NCBI RefSeq assembly: GCF_000003815.2
Contig: NC_049996.1
Span: 16,259,452 to 16,323,451, forward strand
Length of the DNA stretch: 64,000 bases
Origin: Branchiostoma floridae
Lineage: Eukaryota > Chordata > Leptocardii > Amphioxiformes > Branchiostomatidae
Direction: 5' to 3'
The notes under the pieces: generated by a model
The model's database searches: none
What the model saw: only the letters and a program-made list of their open reading frames with translations
What the model was told of the DNA's origin: nothing
Translations under genes and position numbers: made by a program
Part shown: piece by piece, positions 36,986 to 56,114 of the stretch
Position numbering within the stretch: position 1 is the stretch's first letter
How the letters are laid out: every line of letters starts with the position of its first letter

Positions 36986-37055
36986 CTACCAGGGGAACAT
37001 GTTCTGATTCTTCATCTTCTCCAGATGTTGTATCTGCTGTCGTAGAAACAGTATC
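36986..37055 (-). CDS. WAC: WAC exon 17, C-terminus and stop
   Basis: Completes the Arg codon and encodes [20 protein letters not shown] then PW and a TAG stop. It is equivalent to human [20 protein letters not shown], ending two residues later as in human. Acceptor TGTTTCCAG. A poly-G run (971-982 of the 36 kb block) lies just past the stop. The overlapping 127-codon ORF in another frame is not used. Confidence 0.96.
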
Positions 37056-40000
37056 CTGGAAACAACAAAAAAACAAACATTCAGCCTACTGATAGCCATA
37101 TCTTTTTCCGTAGAAACGGCAATGTTTTGAGTCCGTTTGGAAGTGTGGCATTCGAACTGTTTGCATCTTCAAATAAAGAGGAGTTGAGTTCAGGAATCTG
37201 TAGCTTCCAGACGTGTTTCCTTGTTGTCCGTCTGTACTTCTTACATAATTCCCTGTGACGAACTCTTGTCTCAGCGGTATTCCCAAAGAACCAGGGAAGA
37301 ACTCCTATCCCTCTTACATTGCGACAAGTTAATAAATATGTAAAAAAGATAACTCCAGGTGTGTCTCACCTCTGTTCCTGTAATGTGGCCTGGATTTCTG
37401 AGACTCTGACCAGCGAACGAGCGAACTTGAGATCCACCGAAACCTGGGAGCTGTGCAGGCTGCCCATCGCATGGCCCTCTTCATCTAACCTCTGCGCCTA
37501 AACAACAACAATAAACAACAACAATGAAAAACAACAAAATCAATAAACAACAAGTAATGTGCAGGCTGCCCATCGCATGGCTTTCTTCATCTAACCTCTG
37601 CGCCTAAAGGTAATAAACAACAACAAAAGCAACAATAAATGGCCATCACTTAACAGAGTCACTGAGTCCTATCAGTATAACATGATGTCACAGTAGTGGA
37701 TTGCTTATTCCTTGACAAAGCCTGGAGACCAACTTGTGTGTTGGTAATACCAGGGTTGGACAAGTCCACTATTCCGATTTTCGATTGTCCAGGCCAAATG
37801 AAAGTGCTGATCAGGCAAGTACATCTCCTATTCCACTTGCCCAAATGAGCAAGGTATTTCCATGGGTGAGATTTTCATATTCATTACTTTTCACAGTATT
37901 GGCATCAAACATTGGCCAACACAGAAAAATAGAGCCAGTAATAAAAGAATTCCATCACTGGAAGTGAAAATATATAGAATAATGTCATCTAAATTTTGGG
38001 CAAGTGAAAAGTTTGTTCGAGCAAGCGAAATTCTTATCTACTTGCCTGAAAGGACAAATAAATTTTAGAAAACTTGTTGAACCCTGAATACCTAGCCTGA
38101 TTAAATCTCGCTTATAGCAGCCATCCAGCATCCGACGGCCTCCGAGAACAGCCCCGGACAGCAGAGTTTGTGTTACACAAACTACTCAATACCTGTTCAA
38201 ACAAACAAACAAACAAACAAACAAACAAACAAACCGACCTGTCTCTCGGCATGCTCCGCCTGCCAGCCCTGTGTATGTCTGATGAGACTCTCCTTGTAGT
38301 ACTTGACTAGCGAGGGCGTAACAAAACAAACAAACAAACAAACAAACAGACAAACCTGTCTCTCGGCATGCTCTGCCTGCCAGCCTTGCGTATGTCTGAT
38401 GAGACTCTCCTTGTAGTACTTGACTAGCGAAGGTGTGACAAAACAAACAAACAAACAAACAAACCTGTCTCTCTGCATGCTCTGCCTGCCAGCCTTGCGT
38501 ATGTCTGATGAGGCTCTCCTTGTAGTACTTGACTAGCGAAGGTGTGACAAAACAAACAAACAAACAAACAAACCGACCTGTCTCTCTGCATGCTCTGCCT
38601 GCCAGCCTTGCGTATGTCTGATGAGACTCTCCTTGTAGTACTTGACTAGCGAAGGTGTGACAAAACAAACAAACAAACAAACAAACCTGTCTCTCTGCAT
38701 GCTCTGCCTGCCAGCCTTGCGTATGTCTGATGAGGCTCTCCTTGTAGTACTTGACTAGCGAAGGTGTGACAAAACAAACAAACAAACAAACAAACCGACC
38801 TGTCTCTCTGCATGCTCTGCCTGCCAGCCTTGCGTATGTCTGATGAGACTCTCCTTGTAGTACTTGACTAGCGAAGGTGTGACAAAACAAACAAACAAAC
38901 AAACAAACCGACCTGTCTCTCGGCATGCTCTGCCTGCCAGCCCTGCGTATGTCTGGTGAGGCTCTCTTTGTAGTACTTGACTAGCGAGGGCGTGACAAAA
39001 CAAACAAACAAACAAACAAACAAACCTGTCTCTCGGCATGCTCTGCCTGCCAGCCCTGTGTATGTCTGATGAGGCTCTCCTTGTAGTACTTGACTAGCGA
39101 TGGCAGGACAAAACAAACATCTACATCTACATCTACATAGGATACCCCCAAATGACCCCGCGAGGGGCAAAAGTAGGGGGGGGAGCTGAGGCTCCCGGGT
39201 TAGGGCGGGCAGGCCGCCTGCCTGGCATGGAAGTGCTCAACGTTGGGAGCGCTTACAACCGTGCCAGGCAGGGCATTCCACTCGGGAATTGTGCGTGGGA
39301 AAAAAGAATGTTTGTAGATATCGGTGCGTGCAAATATGTGTTGATATTTGAAGTCGTGACTACCCCGGGTGCGCCCTTGGGCAGGCTTCAGAATATTGCT
39401 GGCGTCTATGTTAATATTATTGTTGACTACTTTATAGAAAAAGGTGAGGCGGGCGTTCCTCCTCCTTTCGGAGAGCGGGCGCCACTGCAGGTCTGAAAGC
39501 ATTTGTGTCATGCTGCTAGTCTGCCGGTAGTCATTTAGGGTCACTCGGGCTGCCCTGCGCTGGACGGCCTCCACCGCCTGTATCCCTTTGTTGGTGTACG
39601 GGTCCCAGACGATGGCACTATATTCCAAGTGAGGCCGTACCAGCGCTTTGTAACAAGTGGCCTTGACCCTAGATGGACAATGGGTCAAGTTGCGCCGAAT
39701 GACTCCTAGGACCTTACCAGCTTTGCTAGTGGCGTGGTTGATATGGGTGTCCCACCGCAAATCGTCGGACAGTTGTACTCCAAGATAGGGGTGGGACTTA
39801 ACACCGGTAAGGGCTTCTCCACAGAGGGAGTACTGAGTTATGATGGGGTGCTTTTTACGGGTGATATGGAGGATGTGACATTTAGAGGGGTTGAACGACA
39901 TGAGCCAACGATTTTGCCATTCTGTTAGCGCATCGAGGTCAGACTGCAGCCCTTGTGCGTCAGAAGGCTTGCTGATAGTTCGATAAATCAAGCAATCGTC

Positions 40001-43000
40001 AGCAAACAGTCGAACATGTGAGTCTACGGAATCGGGTAGGTCATTAATGTAGAGCAGGAATAGCAGAGGGCCTAACACAGTACCCTGCGGAACTCCAGAG
40101 GTGACCTTGACAGCTTTAGATGTTCCACCGTCAAAGACAACGCTCTGGGTTCTCTCCGTAAGGAAGGCCCTAAGCCAAGACTGAAGGAGGCCAGAAATAC
40201 CATAGTGCTCGAGCTTGCTCAGCAGACATTCGTGTGGCACAGTATCGAATGCTTTGCTAAAGTCAAGCACCGCGGCATCGACCTGTTTGTTCTGGTCCAT
40301 GTTCTTGGCCAGGTCTTGGAGGGTAAGCACCAGCTGGCTCTCGCAGGACAGACCCTTCCTGAAGCCGTGTTGCGCAGGGGACAGAATGCCATGAGCGTCT
40401 AGATGTTTCATCATGTGGCTGTGCACGATGTGTTCGAGCACTTTACCACAGACCGATGTCAGAGACACCGGCCTATAGTTTGATGGCAAGGTTCTGTCCC
40501 CCTTTTTGAAGATTGGAGCGATGTTAGCTGTTCTCCAATCTTCAGGAACATCTCCCGTGGATATTGACTGGGAGAATATGACCTGTAATATTGGCGCAAT
40601 TTGTTCGGCTACGGTCTTCAGGAGGCGAGGTGGTAATCCGTCTGGTCCTGTGGCCTTGCTGGGGTTAAGACAGGAGAGCTGTTTGGCTACCCCCTCCACT
40701 GTGATGTTAAGGGAGGGGATAGTTGGAGCTTTGGGTTCGCCAAGGGTAGGAACGGTGGTCTTATCCTCCCTGGTAAACACTGACTCAAACTGGGCCCCCA
40801 GTGCATCAGCCTTTTCTTTGGGGTCAGATGTTAGCACCCCCTGATGTCTTAGGGCGGACGCACCAGTAGAGTCTTGTCTGATGGATTTGACATAGCTCCA
40901 AAAGGCCTTGGGATTATCCTCGATGTTAGACTCCAGGTAATTGGAGACATAATCCCTATGGGCCTTCCTAACTCTCTGCTTAACGCCCTTCCTACACCTC
41001 TTGAACTTTGCCCAGGCTTCATTGGAGTTGGATCTCCTAGCCTTGGAAAAAAGTTCAGACCGCTTACGCATAGCTTTGCGAATCTGGGGAGTTATCCAAG
41101 GTTTGTTGGATTGTGGCCTCACTTTTTCCTGGGGACATGCTTATTGGCAGCACCACTAACGGCTGCCTTAAACAGCTCCCAGTTTTCTGAGGCAGTGTTG
41201 TGCTGAGCCTGGTCTGCAAACTCTTGACTGTATGTTGCCATATCCTGCTGGAGTGCATCGATGTTAGCTTTCCTCCACAGGTATATGAGCCGATCTTTTG
41301 AGTTTGATGTTTGGGGCTTTACTTGAACATCAATCAGCGGGATGTCATGATCGCTGAGACCTGGTAAGATTTTGACTCTCTCCACTAAGGTGGAATTTGT
41401 GGTGAGAAACAGATCCAGGGTGTTCGAAGTTTGCCCCACAGTACGAGTTGGTTCACAGACCATTTGTTCCAGACCACAGTCATTGGCAAGGCTGATGTAA
41501 TTGCTAGTGAGAGTGGATGGATTGGAAGCGGTGGTATTAGCTTCAGGGTTCCAGGTCGCATCAGGCAGGTTGAAGTCACCTGCTAGCCAGATGTGGGCAT
41601 TGTTGTTATTAGCCCGCTTTTGCAGCACTGATCTTTCTAGTGCTACAAAATCATCATGACCAGCTGAGGGGGGGCGATAGTAGGCCCCTATGTAGATGGA
41701 CTTACTGTTGGCCAGATGGACCCGGACCCAGGTCAACTCGCAGGGACAGTCCGGGTCTGGGTGGTGGGTTGCTATGATGTTGTTCTTTACAGCAACAAGC
41801 ACACCCCCTCCCCGGCCAGCTCTGTCTCTCCTGAACACATTGTACGTGTCCGGAAAGATTTCGCTGCTGCCCACTGACGAGTCCAGCCACGTCTCAGTGC
41901 CAACAACAATGTCTGGTTGCACAGCTTCGCAAAATGCATGCAGTTCAGGTACCTTATTGCGGATAGATTGAAAGTTGATCACACAGGTCCTGACTGGTTT
42001 GGTATGTGTGCGGTCGCGAGGCGGTGGAGTAATACCATATCCGATAGGCGAAGACGTAGCGATAGGTCTCAACAAACAAACAAACAAACAAACAAACAAA
42101 CCTGTCTCTCGGCATGCTCTGCCTGCCAGCCCTGTGTATGTCTGATGAGGCTCTCCTTGTAGTACTTGACTAGCGAGGGCAGGACAAAACAAACAAACAA
42201 ACAAACAAACAAACAAACAAACCTGTCTCTCGGCATGCTCTGCCTGCCAGCCCTGTGTATGTCTGATGAGGCTCTCTTTGTAGTACTTGACTAGCGAGGG
42301 CAGGACAAAACAAACAAACAAACAAACAAACAAACAAACAAACAAACCTGTCTCTCGGCATGCTCTGCCTGCCAGCCCTGTGTATGTCTGATGAGGCTCT
42401 CTTTGTAGTACTTGACTAGCGATGGCGTGAGTTCGATAGACGGCGGCAGAACCGTCTGTACCGCGGTTGGCGTGGAACTGTGGACCACAGTGTAACTGCT
42501 GCTCACCGCCCCGTCCGCGTGGCTTCTGAAAACGGAAAAACAGATCCACAATCAGTTCTCGCAAGAACTAGGTCACTCCGTGATCATGATGGACTGAGTC
42601 ATCAAAAATTTGGAGGTATGTTTGCTTACCTGTCAAAACTAGTCACTGATTGATGAAAAATTCAATTAACTGTTTACATACGTGACTGATAAATTTCTTC
42701 AACCACAACCAGTTCATATTTTTGACATGCTCAACCTTTTTCTACACTGGTATTGAATTGTTCTGCCAATTCATGCTGACGCTAAAGAAGACTCAAAACG
42801 TCCAGAAGTAATCTCCAAATCTTATCCAGTAATACTTGTAGTATTGTTTACCTGGATTTCAGGGCTGTCTCCAACCCTAACTATTTTTCCATCCCTCTCA
42901 TTATTTGGGAGCCAATGTTGTTGATTTCCTTTGTAAAATCTGTCATTTTATGTACTGAACTTCAGACTCTTGGGGACGGATGGGCTAAAAATTTTCCAAC

Positions 43001-46000
43001 AAGCAAATTTCCAAAAGACTGAAACAAACGTACCCTACAGATTTCTGGCTATGTACACTGTGAGACTGAAAGAAACGTACCCTACAGATTTCTGGCTATG
43101 TACACTGTGAGACTGAAAGAAACGTACCCTACAGATTTCTGGCTATGTACACTGTGAGACTGAAAGAAACGTACCCTACAGATTTCTGGCTATGTACACT
43201 GAGACTGAAGGAAACGTACCCTACAGATTTCTGGCTATGTACACTGTGAGACTAAAAGAAACGTACCCTACAGATTTCTGGCTATGTACACTGTGAGACT
43301 GAAAGAAACGTACCCTACAGATTTCTGGCTATGTACACTGTGAGACTGAAAGAAACGTACCCTACAGATTTCTGGCTATGTACACTGTGAGACTGAAAGA
43401 AACGTACCCTACAGATTTCTGGCTATGTACACTGTGAGACTGAAAGAAACGTACCCTACAGATTTCTGGCTATGTACACTGTGAGACTGAAAGAAACGTA
43501 CCCTACAGATTTCTGGCTATGTGCACTGTGAGACTAAAAGAAACGTACCCTACAGATTTCTGGCTATGTACACTGTGAGACTGAAACAAACCTACCCTAC
43601 AGATTTCTGGCTATGTACACTGTGAGACTGAAACAAACCTACCCTACAGATTTCTGGCTATGTACACTGTGAGACTGACAGAAACGTACCCTACAGATTT
43701 CTGGCTATGTACACTGTGAGACTGAAAGAAACGCACCCTACAGATTTCTGGCTATGTACACTGTGAGACTAAAACAAACGTACCCTACAGATTTCTGGCT
43801 ATGTACACTGTGAGACTGACAGAAACGTACCCTACAGATTTCTGGCTATGTACACTGTGAGACTGACAGAAACGCACCCTACAGATTTCTGGCTATGTAC
43901 ACTGTGAGACTGACACAAACGTACCCTACAGATCTCTGGCTATGTACACTGTGAGACTGACAGACACGTACCCTACAGATTTCTGGCTATGTACACTGTG
44001 AGACTGACAGACACGTACTCTACAGATCTCTGGCTATGTACACTGTGAGACTGACAGACACGCACTCTACAGATTTCTGGCTATGTACACTGAGACTAAG
44101 ACAAACGCACCCTACAGATATCTGGGTATGTACACTGTGAGACTGANNNNNNNNNNNNNNNNNNNNNNNNNNNNNNNNNNNNNNNNNNNNNNNNNNNNNN
44201 NNNNNNNNNNNNNNNNNNNNNNNNNNNNNNNNNNNNNNNNNNNNNNTCTGGCTATGTACACTCGTGAGACTGAAAGAAACGTACCCCACACATTTCTGGC
44301 TATGTGCACTGTGAGACTCAAAGAAACGTACCCTACAGATTTCTGGCTATGTACACTGTGAGACTGACAGAAACGTACCCTACAGATTTCTGGCTATGTA
44401 CACTGTGAGACTGAAAGAAACGTACCCTACAGATTTCTGGCTATGTACACTGTGAGACTGACAGAAACGTACCCTACAGATTTCTGGCTATGTACACTGT
44501 GAGACTGAAAGAAACGTACCCTACAGATTTCTGGCTATGTACACTGTGAGACTGACAGAAACGTACCCTACAGATTTCTGGCTATGTACACTGTGAGACT
44601 GACAGAAACGTACCCTACAGATTTCTGGCTATGTACACTGTGAGACTGAAAGAAACGTACCCTACAGATTTCTGGCTATGTACACTGTGAGACTAAAACA
44701 AACCGTACCCCTTACAGATTTCTGGCTATGTACACTGTGAGACTGGGCAGAAACGTACCCTACAGATTTCTGGCTATGTACACTGTGAAGGACTGAAGGG
44801 AACGTACCCTACAGATTTCTGGCCTTATGTAACACTGTGAGACTGATAGCCACTGTGAGACTGAAAGAAACGTACCCTACAGATTTCTGGCTATGTACAC
44901 TGTGAGACTGAAGCAAACGTACCCTACAGATTTCTGGCTATGTACACTGTGAGACTGATAGAAACGTACCCTACAGATTTCTGGCTATGTACACTGTGAG
45001 ACTGAAAGAAACGTACCCTACAGATTTCTGGCTATGTACACTGTGAGACTGAAGCAAACGTACCCTACAGATTTCTGGCTATGTACACTGTGAGACTAAC
45101 ACAAACGTACCCTACAGATTTCTGGCTATGTACACTGTGAGACTGACAGAAACGTACCCTACAGATTTCTGGCTATGTACACTGTGAGCAGGTGACGCTG
45201 TGCTGGTGACCGCCTCCGGCTGCTGACTGGAGCTGGGCTGCACAAACAACACACAAAACTGGTTAGACTCTCAGAAGCACTGGGGAAGATAGGATGGTGG
45301 CCTTAGTAAAATAAACAGCATATCGCCCCATTAAATCTAATCATACTGTTGGCCTCCTTCAAGCACAAGTTGCTGGTATGCTATGCAGACATTTAGGTAA
45401 GGGAGGGGGGGGGGGGGCGTCAAGGTGTCCCCGGGACAATGTACCATTAACAAAGATTAGACACCTCTTTTTCAGCAAGAGCCTTTGTTATAAAACATGT
45501 ACTGTTGTCCACGTAATACTGCATAAAAACAGGTTTACATTGCTTGAAATGCCCATCTGGTTAACGTAGCACACCCCCACCCCGATTTCATGTATGCCCA
45601 GTCTATAAATCAAAGCTAAAAGCTAGAAGTTGTTATGTGATAACTCATGTGGTACCTGTGGTGAGAGCTGGGACTGGTACGGGGAGGACATGTCTGATAT
45701 TGACGTCCGCATTGACACTGGGGAGGAGTCAGAAACATCTGGGGGGAAACAAACAAACATTAACAATAAAATAATGCTCTTGCAGTTCTGGCAAATGCTC
45801 CAAGAGGGCCCAAACCTATGTCATCATATTCCCCAACATAAGAGCTATTTACCATCCAAATATCAGGACCATAGCTTTTCAGAACACGAAATATCAACAT
45901 CAGAAGTTCTGCATTAGTACCATGGAAAGCCACCAGAGGGCCCGAAATCTAATCAATTCTTTTATAGGACAAGAGCAAAGAGCAAATTTCATGACAATTC

Positions 46001-49000
46001 ATCCATCACTTCTAAAGTTACGCTGTTTTACCACTTACATACAACAGAAATACATACAACACACACACATACATAGTCTTACTCTACTGAGTTGTAGCAT
46101 TTGCATACATACAAATGCTACCAAAAACATGAACTTCTCAGTGAAGGTAATAACACAGTGAAGTCAGGCAACATATGAAAGATAAGTTTGCTCACTGGAA
46201 GGGGGGACAGTTGTGGACGCCTGCGGCTGCTGGGCCTGCAGTGCCTGTTGGGTCAGCAAGGTGGCGTGCTGCAACAGCTGTAAGGACTGCTCTACTCCTA
46301 CATTGTGAACTGGTGGCAAAACAAAAAGGCATAAACGTCAGGAATAAAAAAACAAAACACAACTTGACTTAACTTGACTTACACAACACATTACTGTAAA
46401 AGTTTTAATTTTGTGTGTTTTTTCACGGTGGTTTTTAATTACTGGTTGAAACAAGGCGGTACATGTTGTTGAAGAAGTCAGAACAAGCATTTTTCCTGGT
46501 AATTTTTAGTTTTCCAGGAAGAAGTTACTGTGGAAACTGTGAACACTTTTTATCTTCTCCTTCTTGTGCCATCACTACACTCTAGTACTGTGAACACTAG
46601 ACTGTCGTGAAAATTTCAACATTTACAATGATCTGGCAAAACACTTGCATGCCTGATGCTTACTTCCGTGTTTCTCAAGCAAATATCTTCTGACATGAAA
46701 ACAACAGAGCCAGCAAAGTGATTTCTTAGCTGACTTTCATACTGCAGAAACAGAAACTGATGAGGAGTTGAGTTCTCCTTACCTTGGGATATACTACTTG
46801 AGCTGGAGGTGGGGGGGAAGAGCTGCTGCACCAGGGAGGAAGGGATGGTGTGGGAGGTGGGGTGGGTGCGCCCCAGGGAGGGGGTTCCAGGTGAGGGGGT
46901 GTTCTGCACCGCAGGGGACTCTGCAAGGGGTAGAAACATTGGTGTGAGATATACTGTGATGTCAGCAAACATGGGTGTGATACTGAAATGTCAGCAAACA
47001 TCGGTATGAGACATACTGTGATGTCACTTTACATTGGTGTGATACTGTAATGTCAGTAAATATTGGTGTGAGACATTCTGTGATATCAGTAAACACTGGT
47101 GTGATACATTGTGATGTCAGTAAACATTGGTGTGAGACATTCCATGAAATGTCAGTAAACATTGGTGTGAGACATTCAGTGTGATGTCAGAGGGAGCAGA
47201 TAGATTACAACTGCTCCTCTCCAAGCAGATGTGGGTTGGGCTGCATCAGGCTTTGATCGTGACCTACACGGACATTGGTCCTATCAGTGTAAAGCCTCAT
47301 CATATGCAGGGGGTATGCCGACCTTACAGACTTCACAGCAATACAGCTGGTGGAGCTCTGTCTGTGTTCTATGCCAGGTCTCCAAGGTAACAGGACATTA
47401 CAACTTTTCTCTGACAGTTCTACACCAGTTGCCAGGTAACAGATGTTTCAAGTTGTTCTACTCCTGTTGCAAGGCAAAAGCTATTCTGCTGTTGTTGCCA
47501 TGCAACAGTTGGCTTGACCTGTTCTAACTTCTACTCTTGTTGCAAAGTAACAGCTGTTCTGAACTATTCTACTCCTGTTGCTAGGCAACAGATGTTCTGA
47601 GATGTTCTGCTGTTGCTAAGTAACAGCTGCTCTGACCTGTTCTACTCCTGTTGCTAAGTAACAGCTGCTCTGACCTGTTCTACTCCTGTTGCTAAGTAAC
47701 AGCTGCTCTGACCTGTTCTACTCCTGTTGCTAAGTAACAGCTGCTCTGACCTGTTCTACTCCTGTTGCTAAGTAACAGCTGCTCTGACCTGTTCTACTCC
47801 TGTTGCTAAGTAACAGCTGCTCTGACCTGTTCTACTCCTGTTGCTAAGTAACAGCTGCTCTGACCTGTTCTACTCCTGTTGCTAAGTAACAGCTGTTCTG
47901 ACCTGTTCTACTCCTGTTGCTAGGTAACTGACCTGTTCTACTCCTGGTGTAGATGGTCTGCAGATGTTCGGGGGTTGTTGAGATGTCCATGCGGTCGCTG
48001 CCCTGTCCGGGGGTGCCTCGGTGAGCGCTGGGGGTGCCCTGGGATGAAGAGGGGGTACCTGGAAAAGGGGGGGGGGGGGGTCTTGTTACAATTCACTGAT
48101 GATGGGGACCTCATTATAGATCCACCGATGAGGTGAGGTGCTTGTAAAGGATGCACTTAACAAGGTATTTAGCTTTCACATGATTTATTCCTTTACACAA
48201 AGCAGAAAGATTGGAATATACACAAATGTTTTCTTAACAAGGGAGGAAAAAGACAACTTTCAGGTTCAATTTTGAGGTTCTTACCTGTTCTATTGAGAGA
48301 CTTGTGTCTTACCTGTTCTATTGTGAGACTTGGGGGTGTCTTTGTGCCTTACCTGTTCTATTGTGAGACTTGTGTCTTACCTGTTCTATTGTGAGACTTG
48401 GGGGTGTCCTTGTGCCTTACCTGTTCTATTGAGAGACTTGTGTCTTACCTGTTCTATTGTGAGACTTGGGGGTGTCCTTGTGTCTGTCCAGGGCCGGCTG
48501 ACCGGAGGCGCGGGGGGACGGGTCCGTGGAATGCTTGTGATTAGATGCTGCAGAAATGTAGAAATCACCATTAAAACCTGCTTCGGGGGAGTTTTTACAT
48601 TAAGGAGACATGGTCACCAGTATAGGTTGACTGTTGATACGAGACATGTACTTGGATACTTCGCGCTGATACCTAGGAGTACCAGTTGGGTTAGGGGTGT
48701 GCAGAGGTGGCTAGTGGTTAGGCCTGGAAAAAATGTGTTTCCTGTTGTCCGCAGTGGAGTCACATAGTTTCCAGGTAGAATTTTTATTCAACCTGCATCC
48801 TATTGAAGTAAAAAGACTGCTTGCCTCTCCGATGAAGGATAAATGTATCCATTATGCACAAAATTTAATGCATTTGAATTTTACTTTGAAACTGTATTGT
48901 ATCATGACAGTCTTAGCAAGTCTTAAACAAAATTACAAGACACAAGAAGTAAATCCCTACCTACCGACCATAACGTTTTCAGGACTGAATCAGGAAACAC

Positions 49001-52000
49001 AACACCCTTTTTTCCGAGGCCTTCCTAGTATAGTATCTAAGTGCACTCACAGCTAGGAGTACCAGTTGTACAGGTTATACTGTAGTAGTGTAGTAGTAAC
49101 CAGTAGAAGTGTAGTAGTTAAAGGTAGACGTGTTGTAGTAGCCAGTAATAGTGCGATAGTAACCAGTTACCTATACTCCCAGCTAAGGGTACCAGGTGCT
49201 ATAGAAGTGTTATACAGGTTATAAAAGTGTAGTACATTTGTAGTAATATTTAGTACATGCAATACTCACAGCTAGGAGTACCAGTTGTTATAAAAGTTAT
49301 AAAAGTGTTATACTGGCTACAAAAGTGTAGAACATTAGTATCTAGTAATACTCGCAGCTAGGGGTACCAGTTGTACAGGCTACAGTTATAGTATAGTAGT
49401 AACCAGTAGAAGTGTAGTAGCTAAACCAGTAATTAATACTCACAGCTACGAGTACCAGTTGTATAGGTTATACTGTAGTAGTGTAGATGTAACAAGTTAT
49501 CTATACTCACAGCTAGGAGTACCAGTTGCGCTGCTGCTGCCAGCTTCTCTGCTGTTGGTTCCATGGGAGGAGGAGGAGGAGGAGGCAGTGGCTGAAGAGG
49601 AGGCCGTTTCCTTGGCAACAGGCTTGTCTTTGTGTTTCGACTCTCCGCTATCTTTTGGGCTGAGGGGTGAGAAAACATGACTACATGTAACCCTATCTGG
49701 TATTGGACGATGCTACAGAGATACATAAATATGCACTCAAATTAACCAATCAAAACAAATGATACATCTTGGTATTCTTAGGTGACACCAATCAAGTATG
49801 TTGGTTCTGGGATTTTGTAACGATAAAGCTGAACTTTAAGATCATCCGATATAAGTGTGGCAGAAACATCAACAAGATATTGGTGGCTGCCTAAACACAA
49901 AGATGAAGAAAAGAAGAAGATCAGAGCAGAGTTTTAAAGGTAAAATCTTGCACACACAATTACAGGAAGTAAATATAAAGTAGTCAGATTCAAGTTTTCA
50001 TCTCAGCCTTCTGTTTCCATGTTGCCCTCTTGCTGATTAACTCAAACAAACTGTTAACTGACCAGTCCCTATTCCGAATAAAGAGACTCTTTTTACACAA
50101 CCATTGCTTAATTCACATCAACGTTTCGGTGACCGTCTGTCACCTTCTTCAGGGCAATATAATAAATCAGCAATGGTTGTGTAAAAAGAGTCTCTTTATT
50201 CAGTGACGTACCAACCTGATGAAACTATTCACAGATGGTCTCTATCCCTCCTTACTCAGGGAAGTAAACACACGAACAAACACATACATACATGTAGAAC
50301 AGCATGTATATTCAGTTTGAGCCTCTACATCTAGACTAACTTTGCATAACTTCCCAGAGGGCTCAGTCCACATGCGCGGACTGTTTCATTAGTGGGGGAC
50401 CTACACTACTGTAAATGCAGAAACTTTCGCGGTGGTTTTCACTGCGAAAAGTCCATTTTCTCGCTACCACTAAATTAAATCCCCGCTAACTTAAATGCAT
50501 TTACAGTATTCTAAGTAATCTAACACAAACACCCCACCTCTCCTGCCATCCGGGTGGTTTCTCCCACTGCGACACCTCAGTCTTACAGTTGTAGTAGTAT
50601 TTCTTGCCGGAGGAACTGATGTGTTCCGACCAATCCCCTTGTGCCTTTCGGTAAGCCTGCACAGAAATAAAAATTGTTTCTGTAAGATTTCCGCTGCAAA
50701 CATCTTAAACAAAAGACAATCTTACAATTTGTCACCTACTTTGTCAGTTATTACATGGTGGATAGAAATAGCTTTTTTATAGCTTTTTTTTTGTATTCTG
50801 TAATGTCTCTTTGTATGTATCAAGGGACACTTGAAAAACTGGCCACAGACCTGGGTGTGACCAACTGGTAAAATAAAGTAAAAATGAATGAAAATTGAGA
50901 CCCACCCCCCAAATCTCTTGAAGGTGACAACTCCCTTACCTTTGTATTAGCTGCTGTAGCACTGGAGCTAGCAGTGCTGGACTGGGTATGCTGGAATATA
51001 AACACAAACATAACAGTCAGGTTAGAACTACACAACTCAACATACAGACACGAACTTGTTTGAATACAATGAAAATTTGAAGGTACATGTTTACGCCTTA
51101 CAATGTGTCACTGATTGAATAACATTCTGTTAACTGTATTCATACATGAACCTCTTAAAGGATGAACTTGCTTAAACTTTCAGGTGGACTTAATTTCATG
51201 TGACAAAGGGGAAAGGAGATTTTGTTCATGTGTTCAGCTTGAGGTAGACACATTTCTTTACAAACATTCTGTGAAACATTTCTGAACGAACATTTCTGTA
51301 ATGTTTCTGTCTCAAAATATGTCTATGTTATATTTCTAGTAAGAAGAAACTTTGCCTGAGGTCTCACCTCAGCGTTTTTCTTCCCCGTGTCGGTATCGTT
51401 TTTCTTGTCTGCGGCCTGGGGCTGCGTCTGTGAGTGGTTGGCGGCGCTGTTGCCCTGTCGGGGCTGGTGATTGGCTGCGTTCTGCGCCGGAGAATCGCTG
51501 GTCCCTGCGCGGATGACAGACAACACAAGTCAACACCACCCCTCAGACTCATCCTCCTACACCCAGTCCCCAACCGCACTAGCCTATTGGGGCACTGCTA
51601 TCTAGATGCCTACCAGCGGTTACTGTGATTGTCGCCACAAACCAGCTGTCAACCAATCAGAGAATATGCTTTTCTTGGGCTTTTTGTTTTCGAAAGCAAT
51701 CTCGTAAAGGCCGCTGGGAAGCTATCAGCCAATCATGTTACGTCTTACATAGCTCCATCCTCCTACGCCCGATCCCCAATGGCAGACTGCCCATATAAGG
51801 GTAAGCTCATTAATATTTATAAGCAGGGCGGTCAGTAACTCATCTGAGTGCACAAGAAAGCAGAGGTGACCACAAGGAGTTTTGACACGACTGTGGTCCC
51901 TCTGCGTAGGAGAATGCTCAGACTATTAATCAGCCATTGGTAACACTTTGCTTTCTGATAGTCTGGTTTGTAACTTGTTTAAGAACTATAGGCTTTAAAA

Positions 52001-55000
52001 AGTTCTCGATTTAAAGAACTCTGTTACAAATTTCATACTTTCAAATATTTCAGGCTTCAAAGTGGCACCTGTTATGGTAACAAATCAGCAGGGTTCTAAC
52101 AGTGACATCACTTTTCCAACCAATCAGCTTTTCCCAGTGAAGAGAAATCAACCAGTGAGCAGTTGGTAAAAAAAAAATCCAACCAATAAGCTGTGTTTGA
52201 AGACATTATCTCTGCTCTCCTCCAACCAATCAGGTGTTGGCAAAGAAGAAAGCTGACCAATGAGCAGTGTTGTAACATTACCTCTACCAGGACATTTCCT
52301 ATAGCCAATCAGGATTTAGCATTGGAGCAATCCCACCAATGAGCTGCATTCAGATACTACCTCTTTCTCTCCTCTAACCAATCAGGTGTTGGCAGAGGAG
52401 AAAGCTGACCAATGAGCAGTGTTGTAACATTACCTCTCCTGTCCTCTCTGTCTCTCCTGTGAGGTCGGTCCCAATCCCCAGGACTGTACCTAGCCCTTTC
52501 TCTCTCTAAAACACAAAACCACACCGCAAGCTTTAACAAAACAACTCTGGGAGGGTCAAACACAGTCGGAAAAAAACACACTTCATGTTAAAGAAAAAAT
52601 GAGTACACAAAAGAAATATGAAGCACACAGAATGACAATGCAAAAGAAACTACAGATGTGAAAATGTGTTACTCAAAAAGCAACGATTTAGCATGGATGT
52701 CAGCGGAGAAAAAACTATTTCTCCTGTGAGGTTTTTTGTTCTGTCATTATCTGTGAACCCGTAAATAGTTTCATCAGGTTGTCGAATAAATTTAATATAG
52801 TCTTCTTCGATACACAACCCTTTTTATTATTCAGAAAAATAAAAGAGGATTGTGTAACAAAGATGACTATCTTCAAAAGAAACCTTTTTGAACATTTGAA
52901 ATCAAAGGACATTGGCATGAATTCTACCTTTTCTGTGGAACTTAACTTTTGACGATTTGAAGGTAAAATTATTTTCAACATAACCAAGGTTGTGTTAGAA
53001 AGATCTCAAACATTTAACCCATGTCAGCTTAAAAGTTAAGACTTATGTGGTAGAGACTATCATTCTCGAATAGGGCTGTTTTGCCAGTGGTGTAGGGCTG
53101 ATGTGAATTGGGATTTTACCATGGTCAATATTGACTGATGGAGGCCATATGTATATATAAAACCTTCAGGTGACTTAAACCTGATATAATGGTGGGCGAT
53201 GTTTAACTGCATATAGTGTGAATCTTATGTTATCTCAGAGTTATGATACCCTTAAATGGAAACTTCTTGAGGCTGTTTTGAGTTTCTCATTTTGATACAA
53301 AACTTTCATCTATTGCCACTAAGGAAGGCTTTGGGTATTTCATGTTCCTGGTTCTCTGAGTCTGATAATTTTGGGCAAAGATTTTGGGAAGAGGACTCGT
53401 GCTATTGTTGTTTTGGTATAGAACTGTTGAAAAATAAAAACTTGAGTTTTCCAGAGTTCCATGAAAAGGATAAGCAGAGCCAAGAATAATTTTTGGTGGA
53501 TTTGAACCAACATTCATTAAATGCTGCAGATTCAACATTGGCAGGTTCAAAACCGTTTTACCAGACTGCTCACACTAAGAACCTGAGTGACATGTTAGGT
53601 AAGTCAGGACTCAAAAGAGGGCCTACAGTTGCCTTGAAGCTAACCAGGCCAGGGTTTGAAATATTTCATTTCTACTTTCTCTTGGCTTAAATGTATGCTG
53701 CAGTGCTACTCCTTGCTGTAGTCTCAAAGCTTGCATTATGCCAATTTATGGGCAGTTATTCACTGAATTTACACCATTTCTTATATTTTTTTTCTTACTT
53801 TTCAAAACTCAGAATAATTTTTTTCAAGAAAAGGCTATCAAAACATTCACCATCAGCCACATTCTGATTGCATTTGGAGATCTTACTTTTCAAAACCGAG
53901 GGAAAATGTTTTCAAGAAACGAGTTCGAAAATCTTGAATATCACTCAGATTCTGATTTTGTTGTCTTCAGCACTGGTTTCAAACAATGGTGACAATTTTG
54001 GTTTCACAAAAGGCTGGTCCAGCTCTAATCCTCACATGAGAAAAACTTGTTTCTCCCTGAAAAGCGAAAGTGTTGGTGTTACTCCAGACACACGCTGCTG
54101 TCGCCATAGTTACGGTTGCCATAGTTACCTCTTCTCTCCCGCTCTCTCTCCTTTTCTCTATATCGTTCTGAATAAGAAGATTTGTTCTTATATCTGTCTC
54201 TATCCCTGTCCCTCTCCCGGTCTCTCTCTCGCTCCCTCTCTCTGTCTCTGTCCCGGGACTCCCACGGACTGTTCCTCTTGCCTGGACTGTCCTTCGTGCG
54301 ATGGAAACCTCCGCTGGGCGAATCCCGCACTCTGTCAATCCGATGGTCGTAGTCATTATACGAGCCGCTGCTGTCACGCTTGGATGGGTACTTCCCCACA
54401 CCAGCAGACTGAAATAAACATAAACAACAACATTAACACATCGGAATCAGCAGTGCAATGCAGCTATCACTTTTCAATGTTGTGCTCTAAAATTTAAAGT
54501 GTATTTACATGAAATTAAAAACAACTTTCAAAAATCAAAGACCAAATTTGTTACTCTGCCCATTGTTAAAACATTTATAGGTTAGTGTTATGTCTATCTT
54601 TTTGTGCTGAAGAAATTATACACCTGTTTGTCTAAGAACTGGTTAATGTACCCAATGATCATAACTTCAAGTGTCCTGTCCGCATGTCGAGGTTTGTGCA
54701 TGATACAGTTTTTGGATATTCTAACTCAGTCTAAGTAAAAACCTTAAATTCCCCCCCCCCCCCCAAATAATAATTGAAGGAAACTAAAATGAATTTCAAG
54801 ATGTCATTAATAACTTAATTTTCCAATGCTGCATTTCTTGAGTCAATTTTTGTCATTTATACAAAAACTCGACCTCAAAGAGAATTTTCTTGCAGTAATA
54901 TTTTCCAAAAGATGCCAAAATTCGTTTATAAAGCTGAATTTCTTGTTTGTTTTGATATCAAATGGGGTGTTTTCCTGTGATCTGCTCATGATGACACAAA

Positions 55001-56114
55001 CTTCATCAGGTGATGATCAGGCCCTTTTCTTCTCAAGAAAACTTCCAAGACTCCTTCTGTTTTAAGACCCTGTCTGTGCCTTGAGTCCAGACAATGTCCA
55101 TGAGTGACACCTGTCTGTCTTTTGTTCTCTGATAAACTATAAACCCTCGGTCAAGGTTGATTGATTGGAATGAACTTTCCACGGTGACGATTTTTCACCA
55201 ATTTCGTCTTTCTGGAGTGATCGAATTAAAAATTCAGAGATTTTTCTCAGCCAGATCGCGTGTTGAGATGTCCTGAACGTCCCAGTCGTATTTGAGAGTG
55301 GCTAATTTTGGTCTGGAGGGCCCGATATTTATGTTTACATCAGAAATTGTGACCACTTCTGTCAAAAATGGAGCTGATGTGAAGTCCCGAGTCTCGTCCC
55401 TTCTCGGCGTACCAACCTGGTAGGGATGGGCCTGGCTTCTGTCGTGGTACCTGCAAAACAAAACAGAGAACGTTAACGTGACAGAAACGGGCACTGGCGG
55501 GGCGGGGAAATCGGAAAAACTCATGGAAACTGGGAGCAATTTTGTAGAATGTCTGGAACAAATATGGCGGACTTCTGTCAATGGAGGAGTGGGGAAACAA
55601 GGTGCTTTACCCATCATTGAGCCGCGGATATTTCCGTGCATGCATTACCATCAATACCATAGAGGCTTAAGGGTGGGGTTTGGTGCAACTCTGGTGAATT
55701 TTCGGCACCGCAAAGGGTCTAAACGCCCGCTTATTTTACACCATCATACACCACCAGCCTCTCTGGAGGGGAGGACGCCATGACACATCCGGGACCTTCG
55801 GATTCCAGCCTGATCGATTGACGTTCGTGTCACGGAAATAATGGGGCTCTCAAAGAGGATTGTGTGGTCACAGATCTGATTTATTTGTCATTTTTAGACA
55901 GTAGAGAGGATATTTTCATCCATATACATGAAAAAATACACTTGCAGAGAAAAAAATGATATCTTAAGCAAAATCTTGTCTTCTGTGTTGGCTTTTTAGC
56001 AATCATACAGAGAAGCTGTAAATACTTCTAACAGACCCTAACACTTGACGGAACTTACCGAGGATTTCCGACTATTTCCGAAGAGCTGCGCTCGTAAATC
56101 TTCGGGTCCTCCAT
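36986..56114 (-). CDS. WAC: WAC orthologue, whole gene (17 coding exons, 648 codons)
   Basis: Orthologue of WAC, the nuclear WW-domain adaptor with coiled coil. In mammals WAC links the RNF20/RNF40 H2B ubiquitin ligase to RNA polymerase II and also acts in autophagy and mitosis; that is family knowledge. Seen here: 17 exons joined by GT-AG introns whose lengths (56, 34, 315, 70, 137, 51, 119, 149, 99, 126, 138, 114, 83, 80, 178, 128, 70 nt) sum to 1947 nt, exactly 648 codons plus TAG, with every phase compatible. Human WAC is 647 aa. The order is an N-terminal basic/RE-rich region (residues 1-160), a WW domain (about 228-258: W230, YYYN 241-244, W252, P255), Ser/Thr/Pro/Gln-rich linkers (260-520), and a C-terminal coiled coil (about 560-648). 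The start ATG at 56114 is followed by a consensus GTAAGT donor. At least six of the 16 introns carry tandem copies of the upstream exon end and donor. Weakest points are the exact exon 3/4 junction and possible upstream non-coding exons. Confidence 0.95.
37370..37497 (-). CDS. WAC: WAC exon 16, coiled coil
   Basis: Encodes [20 protein letters not shown], then [20 protein letters not shown] and EQ, aligning with the human ASRLREEAHNMG...LRSLVRVCEIQATLREQ. Acceptor TTGTTTAG, donor GTGAGA, phase 2 out. The first 45 nt and acceptor are duplicated upstream at 37559-37608. Confidence 0.96.
37559..37608 (-). repeat. partial duplication of WAC exon 16 with its acceptor
   Basis: On the minus strand TTTAG is followed by 45 nt nearly identical to the start of exon 16 (AQRLDEE...HAMGSLH with two changes), then unrelated sequence without a donor. 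It lies 106 bp upstream of the true exon, so it is a decoy acceptor. Confidence 0.85.
37752..38086 (-). repeat. dispersed element, copy 2, in WAC intron 15
   Basis: Opposite orientation to the 22.3-kb copy; it starts CAGGGTTGGACAAGT and ends AGAAAACTTGTTGAACCCTG. It lies between WAC exon 16 and the exon 15 array. Confidence 0.6.
38094..38190. mobile_element. CTAGCCTGATTAAATC family fragment
   Basis: Begins CCTAGCCTGATTAAATCTCG and ends at GTGTTACACAAACTAC, next to the exon 15 array. Confidence 0.5.
38190..39117 (-). repeat. WAC exon 15 partial-exon array, distal block (8 units)
   Basis: Eight units of about 110-115 bp. Each contains the last about 75 nt of exon 15 (coding for [15 protein letters not shown] and WQAEHAERQ), its donor, and a (GTTT)n spacer. 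Copies are nearly identical to each other and to the real exon. The coding part stays intact in all units, and a frame of 246 codons runs through without stops, but in alternating frames, so it is not a protein. The spacer ends TTTTGTCCTGCCCTCGCTAG on the minus strand, an acceptor-like context that the true exon lacks at that place. Confidence 0.92.
39200..41122 (-). CDS. retrotransposon ORF2, reverse transcriptase part
   Basis: About 640 residues in one open frame from [14 protein letters not shown] to the stop at 39202. RT motifs in order: [70 protein letters not shown] (the catalytic YADD-type box as FADD) and [12 protein letters not shown], then the CR1/L2-type C-terminal region ([25 protein letters not shown]). 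The absence of internal stops indicates a recent insertion. It overlaps the endonuclease frame through the one-base shift. Confidence 0.9.
   Translation of the reverse strand: MRPQSNKPWITPQIRKAMRKRSELFSKARRSNSNEAWAKFKRCRKGVKQRVRKAHRDYVSNYLESNIEDNPKAFWSYVKSIRQDSTGASALRHQGVLTSDPKEKADALGAQFESVFTREDKTTVPTLGEPKAPTIPSLNITVEGVAKQLSCLNPSKATGPDGLPPRLLKTVAEQIAPILQVIFSQSISTGDVPEDWRTANIAPIFKKGDRTLPSNYRPVSLTSVCGKVLEHIVHSHMMKHLDAHGILSPAQHGFRKGLSCESQLVLTLQDLAKNMDQNKQVDAAVLDFSKAFDTVPHECLLSKLEHYGISGLLQSWLRAFLTERTQSVVFDGGTSKAVKVTSGVPQGTVLGPLLFLLYINDLPDSVDSHVRLFADDCLIYRTISKPSDAQGLQSDLDALTEWQNRWLMSFNPSKCHILHITRKKHPIITQYSLCGEALTGVKSHPYLGVQLSDDLRWDTHINHATSKAGKVLGVIRRNLTHCPSRVKATCYKALVRPHLEYSAIVWDPYTNKGIQAVEAVQRRAARVTLNDYRQTSSMTQMLSDLQWRPLSERRRNARLTFFYKVVNNNINIDASNILKPAQGRTRGSHDFKYQHIFARTDIYKHSFFPRTIPEWNALPGTVVSAPNVEHFHARQAACPP
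41119..42070 (-). CDS. retrotransposon ORF2, endonuclease part
   Basis: An APE-type endonuclease about 310 residues long, starting near [19 protein letters not shown]. Visible motifs are TETWLD, YYRPPSA, AGDFNLP and GLSDHDIP; the last two hold the catalytic Asp/Asn/His residues. It nicks target DNA for target-primed reverse transcription. The open frame extends upstream into the WAC repeats in a non-WAC frame, which is coincidental. It ends KHVPRKK-stop at an A-run where the frame moves by one base into the RT frame, so ORF2 is broken. Confidence 0.85.
42071..42430 (-). repeat. WAC exon 15 partial-exon array, proximal block
   Basis: Three units including the real exon end (42348-42430), spaced 119-127 bp because of longer (AAAC)n spacers. 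This block and the one at 38190-39117 were one array before the retrotransposon entered. Confidence 0.92.
42348..42525 (-). CDS. WAC: WAC exon 15, start of C-terminal coiled coil
   Basis: A 178-nt exon encoding [20 protein letters not shown], then [20 protein letters not shown] and [19 protein letters not shown]. It aligns with the human [29 protein letters not shown] segment, among the most conserved parts of WAC. Acceptor TCCGTTTTCAG, donor GTTTGTTTG. The donor runs straight into a (GTTT)n tract, and the 3' half of this exon is repeated about ten more times downstream. Confidence 0.95.
43014..45190 (-). repeat. 47-bp array of WAC exon 14 end plus 5' splice site (~46 units)
   Basis: On the minus strand the unit holds GTACATAGCCAGAAATCTGT, then AGG|GTACGT and TTCTNTCAGTCTCACAGT. 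The first 23 bases are the end of the coding exon (HSQKSV), and AGGGTACGT is its donor. Units are 85-100% alike. Some have GTGCGT or GAGTACGT in place of GTACGT. The array fills nearly all of intron 14 and is broken by a 100-N gap, so copy number is uncertain. 47 is not a multiple of 3, so using any single decoy donor shifts the frame. Confidence 0.95.
44147..44246. other. assembly gap (100 N) inside the exon 14 array
   Basis: A round-number gap, normally of unknown true size; the array is collapsed or unresolved here. Confidence 0.99.
45158..45237 (-). CDS. WAC: WAC exon 14
   Basis: Encodes [20 protein letters not shown], then HSQKSV plus two bases (GG), to a GTACGT donor. Acceptor TTGTTTGTGCAG. 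The segment from the middle of the exon through the donor is the founder of the 47-bp tandem array that occupies almost all of intron 14. Confidence 0.88.
45656..45738 (-). CDS. WAC: WAC exon 13
   Basis: Encodes [19 protein letters not shown] and then PYQSQLSPQ, matching the human SDASSPRSYVSPRIST region. Acceptor TTTCCCCCCAG, donor GTACCA, phase 0 out. Confidence 0.88.
46196..46309 (-). CDS. WAC: WAC exon 12
   Basis: Encodes [19 protein letters not shown], then [19 protein letters not shown]. It is Gln/Leu-rich and probably helical, equivalent to the human [20 protein letters not shown] segment. Acceptor TTTTGCCACCAG, donor GTGAGC, phase 1 in and out. Confidence 0.88.
46392..46628. mobile_element. 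possible diverged MITE of the 'TACTGTAAATGC' family
   Basis: Starts TACTGTAAAAG and ends ACATTTACAATG, with TCACGGTGGTTTTTAATT inside. Resembles the family, but the ends are imperfect. In WAC intron 11. Confidence 0.35.
46783..46920 (-). CDS. WAC: WAC exon 11
   Basis: Encodes [20 protein letters not shown], then [20 protein letters not shown], aligning with the human SPVPQSPIPPLL...LLRQLLPAL stretch. Acceptor CCCCTTGCAG, donor GTAAGG, phase 1 at both ends. Confidence 0.9.
46936..47200. repeat. ~35-bp tandem repeat in WAC intron 10
   Basis: Seven degenerate copies of AACATTGGTGTGAGACAT plus CTGTGATGTCAGTA, starting about 16 bp from the exon 11 acceptor. It does not include exon sequence, unlike the donor-spanning arrays. 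Confidence 0.8.
47380..47950 (-). repeat. 38-bp array of WAC exon 10 end plus 5' splice site
   Basis: Eight nearly identical and about five older, degenerate units. On the minus strand each reads CAGGAGTAGAACAG|GTCAGA, GCAGCTGTTACTTAG and CAA. CAGGAGTAGAACAG is the end of coding exon 10 and GTCAG its donor. Units decay with distance from the exon. Confidence 0.93.
47933..48058 (-). CDS. WAC: WAC exon 10
   Basis: Preceded by a C/T-rich acceptor (CCCCCTTTTCCAG). It encodes [20 protein letters not shown], then [20 protein letters not shown] and RT, to a GTCAGT donor. Exons 9 and 10 both end in an RT-G junction on the same ten bases (TAGAACAGGT), hinting that they may be old duplicates. The exon end plus donor founds the 38-bp array at 47380-47950. 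Confidence 0.87.
48284..48485 (-). repeat. array of WAC exon 9 end plus 5' splice site (6 copies)
   Basis: Three composite 68-bp units (28 + 40 bp), giving six copies of CTATTG-type exon end with the AGAACAG|GTAAG donor. The 40-bp half carries more of the coding exon (GACACCCCCAAGTCTCAC on the minus strand). The real donor is the one at 48448-48447. Confidence 0.93.
48449..48547 (-). CDS. WAC: WAC exon 9
   Basis: Encodes [20 protein letters not shown] and then [12 protein letters not shown], ending with the first base of a Gly codon at GTAAGA. It is Ser/Pro/Thr-rich linker sequence with no recognised fold. The acceptor is TTTCTGCAG. Its last 35 nt plus the donor are copied five more times downstream. 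Confidence 0.87.
48660..49540 (-). repeat. degenerate array of WAC exon 8 end plus 5' splice site
   Basis: The block ACTGGTACTCCTAGCTGTGAGT (minus strand, written here in two parts: ACTGGTACTCCTAGCT and GTGAGT) recurs near 49439, 49352, 49265, 49166, 49045 and, without the donor, 48666. Spacing is 70-120 bp, with TA-rich filler (TACTACACTACTACAGTATA). Older than the exon 9 and 10 arrays. Confidence 0.85.
49511..49659 (-). CDS. WAC: WAC exon 8
   Basis: Encodes [20 protein letters not shown] followed by a poly-Ser tract and TGTPS, matching the human ERKESTSGDKPV segment. Acceptor CACCCCTCAG, donor GTGAGT, phases 2 in and 1 out. The last about 20 nt plus the donor recur as degenerate copies through the intron (48660-49460). 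Confidence 0.9.
50076..50201. mobile_element. foldback element in WAC intron 7
   Basis: GAATAAAGAGACTCTTTTTA and CACAACCATTGCT are repeated in inverse at the other end (AGCAATGGTTGTG, TAAAAAGAGTCTCTTTATTC). The 30-bp arms are nearly perfect; the loop holds ACGTTTCGGTGACCGTCTG. Confidence 0.85.
50407..50508. mobile_element. palindromic MITE 'TACTGTAAATGC', copy 5
   Basis: Internally deleted copy (102 bp) with both termini, in WAC intron 7, ending 30 bp from the WW exon donor. Confidence 0.87.
50538..50656 (-). CDS. WAC: WAC exon 7, WW domain
   Basis: The most diagnostic exon. It encodes [19 protein letters not shown], then [37 protein letters not shown] and TEVSQWEKP are essentially identical to human WAC. 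All WW hallmarks are present: the first Trp, the YYYN aromatic block, the second Trp and the Pro three residues after it. WW domains bind proline-rich peptides; in mammalian WAC this region contacts phosphorylated RNA polymerase II. Acceptor TTTCTGTGCAG, donor GTGGGG, phase 2. Confidence 0.97.
50940..50990 (-). CDS. WAC: WAC exon 6
   Basis: A 51-nt, phase 0-0 exon encoding [17 protein letters not shown], between a TATATTCCAG acceptor and a GTAAGG donor. A symmetrical cassette, so it could be skipped without a frame change. It leads directly into the WW exon. Confidence 0.87.
51368..51504 (-). CDS. WAC: WAC exon 5
   Basis: A 137-nt exon after a GCGCAG acceptor, encoding [20 protein letters not shown] and ending GKKNAE at GTGAGA. 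Asn/Gln/Ser-rich, like the human segment just upstream of the WW domain (SSNPSNNPSKTSDAP). No recognised fold. Confidence 0.88.
52185..52440 (-). repeat. duplicated blocks around the WAC exon 4 donor
   Basis: The segment with CCAATCAGGTGTTGGCA, AAGCTGACCAATGAGCAGTG and TTGTAACATTACCTCT occurs twice (52208-52285 and 52376-52440), with further partial matches to 52080. TTACCTCT is the reverse of the exon 4 AGAG|GTAA junction, so the donor is again inside the repeated unit. The frequent CCAAT words are part of the repeat, not a promoter. Confidence 0.75.
52434..52503 (-). CDS. WAC: WAC exon 4
   Basis: Encodes [20 protein letters not shown] followed by DRR, ending one base into a Gly codon at a GTAATG donor. 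It corresponds to the human RERDGGTSYSPQ region. The acceptor is one of three overlapping AGs (TTTTAGAGAG); the phase-0 AG at 52505-52504 is the one compatible with exon 3. The donor lies inside a tandem repeat (52185-52440). Confidence 0.78.
52504..54093 (-). other. WAC intron 3
   Basis: 1590 bp, AT-rich. Short ORFs on the plus strand (53292-53992) are unrecognised. No transposon ends found. Confidence 0.6.
54094..54408 (-). CDS. WAC: WAC exon 3, basic and RE/RD-rich region
   Basis: Starts after TTTATTTCAG with [15 protein letters not shown], aligning with human ALKYSSKSHPSSG. It then runs into a long Arg/Asp/Glu alternating tract ([18 protein letters not shown]) and [17 protein letters not shown]. 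It ends GDSS with a GTGTGT donor in phase 0. The tract is far more repetitive than in human WAC and lies on an AG-rich low-complexity DNA stretch, so length variation is likely. The other GT steps in the GTGTGT string give different phases; only the first (or, less well, the second) fits exon 4 without a stop. Confidence 0.88.
55417..55450 (-). CDS. WAC: WAC exon 2
   Basis: A 34-nt micro-exon after a TTTTGCAG acceptor. It completes the Arg codon and encodes [11 protein letters not shown], equivalent to human CHDRRGDSQPYQ. The donor is GTTGGT and the exon ends in phase 0. The surrounding frame stays open for about 130 codons, but the homology stops exactly at this GT. Confidence 0.88.
56059..56114 (-). 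CDS. WAC: WAC exon 1 (start codon)
   Basis: Encodes [18 protein letters not shown] plus two bases of an Arg codon, ending at a perfect GTAAGT donor. It matches human WAC exon 1 in length and in leading directly into the YHDR/CHDR motif of exon 2. The ATG at 56114-56112 is preceded 11 nt upstream by an out-of-frame ATG (56125) that opens a short overlapping uORF. A CACAG acceptor-like site upstream leaves room for a separate 5' non-coding exon. Confidence 0.85.

Follow-up and report, generated by a model that had tools for sequence, protein, structure and literature searches.

Why should the introns of a single amphioxus gene consist in good part of copies of the exon ends that precede them? 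The gene is the orthologue of WAC in Branchiostoma floridae. It lies in a stretch of 64,000 nucleotides (the window, C18:16259452-16323451 of a 513-Mb assembly), for which a preliminary description had claimed that, just downstream of exons 4, 8, 9, 10, 14 and 15, the intron is built of tandemly repeated exon ends, each with its GT donor. It had also proposed that duplications start preferentially at 5' splice sites, or that copies containing a donor are selectively kept. The observation was largely right but incomplete, and the interpretation proved half right. We consider it probable (about 0.7) that the arrays are mirages, i.e. ordinary minisatellites that happen to include an exon edge and are tolerated by splicing. 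In the passages of PMC3087553 and PMC3902484 that deal with them, amphioxus "mirages" are tandem repeats across exon-intron boundaries, found at both intron ends in Adh3, troponin C, globins and PGBD5; PMC3902484 adds PGBD5 to these genes and cites troponin C.

WAC was modelled with 17 exons, joined in a single uninterrupted frame that runs through all junctions to the stop. The exon numbers of the preliminary description are the same in this model.

36986..56110, minus strand: WAC orthologue, 17 exons modelled (continuous frame, guided tblastn, WW domain PF00397)

The exons were placed by tblastn, with the human WAC sequence as a guide, and by splice signals. Exon 1 is modelled from 56110, and an earlier start is possible. 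A profile search detects the WW domain in the model with an E of 3.1e-10.

We aligned the 30 nt of exon edge at each of the 16 donors and 16 acceptors to the adjacent intron, using exon letters only, and compared the score with those of 200 single-letter shuffles. Five of the six donors exceeded all shuffles: exons 9, 14 and 15 each scored 60 against a shuffle maximum of 24, exon 8 scored 36 against 21, and exon 10, the least clear of the five, 29 against 22. Exon 4 only just exceeds them and is marginal (21 against 20). Its best copy has just the AGAG of the exon, and the array thus begins practically at the donor; when aligned by BLAST with gaps, the repeat includes 14 nt of the exon. The remaining 10 of the 16 donors all gave p > 0.1 in this edge test. 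The six arrays, some of them also delimited by Tandem Repeats Finder (TRF), are as follows.

52115..52447, minus strand: exon 4 donor array, marginal, spacings of about 73 and 152 bp, taking in about 4-14 nt of the exon (TRF, edge test)
48673..49529, minus strand: exon 8 donor array, degenerate, copies 67-88 bp apart, taking in 19 nt of the exon (repeat finder, edge test)
48279..48485, minus strand: exon 9 donor array, units of 28+40 bp, taking in up to 37 nt of the exon (TRF, edge test)
47409..47949, minus strand: exon 10 donor array, 38 bp, 17 nt of exon (TRF, edge test)
43014..45188, minus strand: exon 14 donor array, 47 bp, 31 nt of exon, 41 decoy copies by core match (TRF)
38199..42430, minus strand: exon 15 donor array, 109-125 bp, 83 nt of exon, 10 decoy copies, interrupted by an element resembling a long interspersed nuclear element (LINE) (TRF)

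The organisation is tandem and minisatellite-like at exons 4, 9, 10, 14 and 15, which all have TRF rows, and degenerate at exon 8. Unit lengths are close to those first given, except at exon 4, where we found the two spacings above and no 165-bp unit. The units are unrelated between sites in length and in exon breakpoint. Repeats reach into the exons by a variable distance, from about 4 to 83 nt, and such scattered breakpoints speak against a start of the duplications at the 5' splice site itself. The claim that the introns are mainly decoy exon ends applies to intron 14, where the array occupies 2144 of 2632 bp (a gap of Ns counted in). In introns 8 (493 of 963 bp) and 10 (about 516 of 1012 bp) the arrays make up about half, in intron 9 they cover 170 of 390 bp, and in introns 4 (333 of 929 bp) and 15 (1280 of 4850 bp) much less than the claim implies, the LINE-like element occupying more of intron 15 than the array does.

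The gap just mentioned, 100 Ns at 44147-44246 within the exon 14 array, means that the true number of copies may differ from our count. It also raises the question of whether the assembler made, dropped or misplaced some of the repeat copies. According to the globin paper (PMC3087553), the BflGb6 mirage looked aberrantly assembled in the draft genome and was rebuilt from traces. Against this, the copies in WAC differ among themselves, one array has a transposable element inside it, and in a DNA search of the assembly, made as a haplotype comparison, the exon 11-13 stretch was matched over its full length at one place and at no second one. In PGBD5, the repeats are backed by re-examined and new sequence data in the account of PMC3902484. 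We regard an artefact as very improbable, although copy numbers could be wrong even so.

Near the six WAC donors, 70 copies of the donor region were identified in the introns. The GT is retained in 68 of them (1/1 at exon 4, 3/5 at exon 8, 5/5 at exon 9, 8/8 at exon 10, 41/41 at exon 14 and 10/10 at exon 15), with the proviso that decoys were picked by resemblance to the donor core, a selection that favours retained GTs. Use of a decoy would lead to a frameshift or a stop in 69 of the 70 cases, the exception being the first decoy of exon 10. The latter (47903-47932) would add ten residues (30 nt) in frame and may define an alternative isoform. Judging from the reading frame, WAC would hence need the first donor at each array, with exon 10 possibly excepted. 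The contrast is sharpest at exon 14, where 35 of the 41 decoys equal or surpass the real donor in a simple consensus score. Each of the 41 would lead to a frameshift or a stop.

The retention of GT in nearly all decoys is what one would see if extra donors were useful, e.g. as splice sites in reserve, or by binding U1 and thereby guarding long introns against premature 3' end formation. Homogenisation of the arrays accounts for it equally well. When columns were counted over full units, the GT columns were not both invariant in the exon 14 and exon 9 arrays, and their invariance had a probability by chance of 0.70 at exon 15 and 0.95 at exon 10. These per-column counts, made on four arrays, do not show that the GT of decoys is specially constrained, and because the copies are homogenised the column test is uninformative on selection. 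The exon 14 array has another feature in favour of selective retention, since its intron-side columns are more variable (60 changes in 16 columns) than its exon-side columns (28 changes in 31). This contrast is hard to weigh because shared variants spread with the growth of the array. Further points against useful decoys are the 69 copies whose use would disrupt the frame and the existence of arrays at acceptors (below). The proposed selective keeping of decoys therefore finds no independent support, given that copies were chosen by likeness to the donor core, arrays are homogenised and GT columns are unremarkable; we judge it improbable.

The boundary effect in WAC is not confined to donors, since a part of exon 16 has been duplicated together with its acceptor.

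37452..37626, minus strand: exon 16 acceptor duplication, copies 106 bp apart, including the AG and about 46 nt of the exon (repeat finder, edge test)

Here the start of the exon and its AG (37452-37502) are copied upstream at 37558-37608, in two copies only, and the acceptor edge scores 50 against a shuffle maximum of 28. The acceptor edges of introns 4, 9 and 16 were not counted: their p was 0.015-0.02, but their scores stayed within the shuffle maximum. Like this duplication, arrays free of exon sequence and the LINE-like element were missing from the preliminary description. An exon-free array lies in intron 3 at 53793-53957, a weak exon-free repeat pair at 51550-51779, and the other two features are listed here.

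46934..47190, minus strand: exon-free array in intron 10, stops 13 nt before the exon 11 acceptor (TRF, diagonal scan)
39120..42070, minus strand: LINE-like element in the exon 15 array, about 2.95 kb (RVT_1, E = 1.1e-34; ends judged by eye)

The LINE-like element has a reverse transcriptase frame of 646 residues (39200-41140) in the same orientation as WAC, and it splits the CAAA-rich exon 15 array. We considered it as the maker of this array and rejected the idea, as array copies flank it on both sides. No similar element was seen by eye in the other five donor arrays, where no element search was run.

Do such arrays meet exon boundaries more often than they should? We sampled independent genes, locating chaperonin, myosin and dynein exons by Pfam in 220,889 bases of 55 segments. 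The family hits listed numbered 312 (60 for PF00118, 142 for PF00063 and 110 for PF12774). We entered 209 of these (60, 63 and 86), chosen as likely to lie within the fetched sequence, and 181 fell in it; 14 aldehyde dehydrogenase hits were unused. The preliminary description had called for a comparison of repeats at 5' splice sites, 3' splice sites and intron positions throughout the genome. Run on the sampled genes, it shows local repeats covering 10 of 155 donors, 6 of 158 acceptors and 2.7-7.5% of intron points (e.g. 7/143 at +100 and 5/140 at -100). A single dynein gene on C11 supplies four of the ten donor rows and three of the six acceptor rows. In a dynein heavy chain gene (L091, C11:20521813-20522184), one piece of 27-28 residues is hit three times at a spacing of about 142-146 bp; this is a donor-side array long enough to mimic repeated exons.

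The BLAST self-comparison overlooked arrays of short period lying close to the main diagonal, and for this reason we wrote an ungapped diagonal scan, which itself misses the gapped exon part at WAC exons 4 and 10 and scores both as interior. In 86 complete introns it found six donor, two acceptor and five interior arrays, where 2.0, 2.0 and 9.0 were expected; three more arrays copy exon letters without 6 nt across the junction. Markov-shuffled controls for these 86 introns gave no hits. Adding exons by paralogue comparison led to a set of 153 introns, with 82 neighbouring exon pairs skipped because they had no phase-consistent splice pair, contained a gap or were too long. This set has nine donor, one acceptor, five interior, four exon-part and two exon-only arrays. 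Nine of the 19 arrays tested are at donors (P = 0.0016; for acceptors, P = 0.98), the two exon-only arrays being outside the test, and strict boundary arrays account for 10 of 15 against 5.4 expected (P = 0.0044). In this set array copies may be annotated as exons, and it lacks the C19 and C12 acceptor arrays that are present in the 86- and 161-intron scans.

Where the exon copy is conserved, a match can be seen for longer. Part of the boundary excess can thus be ascertainment, and we reran the detection with exons masked, so that arrays had to be found within the intron alone. In 161 introns, the merger of the two earlier sets, this left 12 arrays: four donor, three acceptor and five interior. 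Seven of the 12 touch a boundary, against 3.26 expected under uniform placement (P = 0.015; donors P = 0.062, acceptors P = 0.215). Treated in the same way, WAC has eight arrays, five at donors and three interior (exon 4 among the latter), with 0.87 expected at boundaries; for this count WAC is a gene chosen post hoc. The thresholds (score 22, overlap of 6 nt) were our choice. Since several variants of the detector were tried on overlapping material, the P-values are descriptive. The excess over uniform placement that had been suspected is therefore suggestive. The claimed specificity for donors is not supported: WAC has its acceptor case, the masked sample is split four to three, the Adh3-type exon described below has one array at each end, and mirages have been described at both intron ends (PMC3087553). 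A preference for donors over acceptors is not established; in view of the 153-intron set, a lean towards donors is conceivable.

The excess could mean that lancelet exon-intron boundaries, at both ends and perhaps more at donors, are hot spots of tandem duplication, e.g. through transcription-linked breaks or local structure. That it persists with intron-only detection (P about 0.015) is in favour, as is the share of donors in the 153-intron set, which is another cut of the same material. In addition, boundary arrays are five of the six sample arrays whose best copy identity is at least 0.90. On the other hand, the sample is small and dominated by the dynein family, and the junction letters are identical in two of the nine donor rows of the 153-intron set, which lie in two myosin loci and could go back to a single event. 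Breakpoints are scattered, with no concentration at the splice site, constraint on the exon extends detectability, and several detector settings were tried. If such a lancelet process existed, exon edges would seed intron growth, introns would become libraries of exact decoys, and the spliceosome would reliably pick the exon-proximal site among them. We find this possible but rather unlikely.

The prototype mirage gene offers a control. The best match in the assembly to TIGR02818 (class III alcohol dehydrogenase) is one exon on C6 (E = 2.9e-37, below the whole-protein cut-off), which we take to be Adh3 on the strength of this match. The exon has arrays on both sides (segment L092).

L092:1464-1868: acceptor array of the Adh3-type exon, 59 bp, 6.9 copies, 26 nt into the exon
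L092:2054-2377: donor array of the Adh3-type exon, 33 bp, 9.8 copies, 19 nt of exon included

With exon letters only, the edge test is clear for the acceptor (52 against 23) and modest for the donor (24 against 22). An exon with both arrays makes the structure in WAC one of the same kind as in the prototype gene. Additional arrays lie in the segment at 576-717, 1021-1261 and 1371-1440.

We have directly observed the arrays, their boundary-spanning units, cases at donors and acceptors, and parallels elsewhere in the assembly, both in unrelated genes and at an Adh3-type exon. The reading that we favour, minisatellites tolerated by splicing, would explain them as follows. Tandem duplications would arise locally, in or near introns, and then expand by slippage or unequal exchange. 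Those altering the mRNA would be removed, whereas those inside an intron or across one boundary would be silent and free to expand. After duplication across a donor, the exon-proximal donor would still set the exon and the copies would turn into intron; we infer that this is what happens in WAC. After duplication across an acceptor, the last acceptor would still set the exon. We propose that boundary arrays persist because splicing renders them silent. The globin paper (PMC3087553) takes the Adh3 data and its own globin RT-PCR to suggest that mirages leave regular splicing undisturbed. Several percent of the sampled boundaries carry arrays, and WAC, with 16 introns, is an extreme draw chosen after the fact.

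Three observations weigh against this reading of the arrays as tolerated minisatellites. Uniform placement does not predict the boundary excess (7/12 against 3.3 in the sample and 5/8 against 0.87 in WAC). Six affected donors in the 16 introns of WAC are many when compared with 6 in the 86 introns of the first sample. Finally, plain neutrality of the copies, without homogenisation, does not explain the contrast between exon-side and intron-side columns at exon 14.

Exon-edge arrays matter as a possible source of new introns, a route already proposed for mirages (PMC3087553), and as a stress test of splice-site choice. Mirages are a natural experiment on such choice: intron 14 presents the real donor followed by at least 41 of its own copies, and WAC brings together seven boundary cases of different age in a single gene. 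Should the residual excess over uniform placement hold genome-wide, it would be the interesting part.

Other features were recorded along the way. In WAC, the C-terminal part has no match in PDB at E up to 0.01. Intron 12 contains a dispersed repeat (45803-45959) with at least 40 other places at 69-80% identity (40 of 354 candidates were scored); 38 of these 40 matches are on other contigs and most cover the same stretch. Elsewhere in the window, a tandem 138-bp array (11223-11665) carries a 181-residue open frame with a repeated THTGEQPS, and two short arrays (58217-58307 and 59601-59696) share a near-identical unit of 32-33 bp, 1.3 kb apart.

How does WAC compare with known systems? Among the papers listed from the open-licence literature, we recognised no genome-wide test of mirage position, and we found no paper on WAC together with amphioxus intron tandem repeats. 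Structures of this kind were described in 2010 at the latest (PMC3087553, itself citing earlier work). Tandem duplication that copies splice signals within a gene is also the basis of the Rogers model of intron gain as set out in PMC3443670; there, a duplicated exonic AGGT gives a new intron, whereas in WAC existing introns are lengthened. The introns of amphioxus VCBP3 are said to hold copies of adjacent exons with canonical splice sites, as in WAC (PMC2632668, where the data are not shown), but the passage concerned does not describe these partial exons as tandem arrays of exon edges. The closest likeness is with the mirages of Adh3, troponin C, BflGb6, BflGb9 and PGBD5: a unit that spans the boundary, a sequence specific to the gene and occurrence at both intron ends. 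WAC arrays also share the unit lengths of 10-160 bp and the many copies with AG/GT signals given in these accounts. Unlike the genes published there, WAC is affected at six donors (one of them marginal) and one acceptor in 16 introns, a higher density than these accounts give for any gene. WAC is thus an extreme, dense additional member of the amphioxus mirages.

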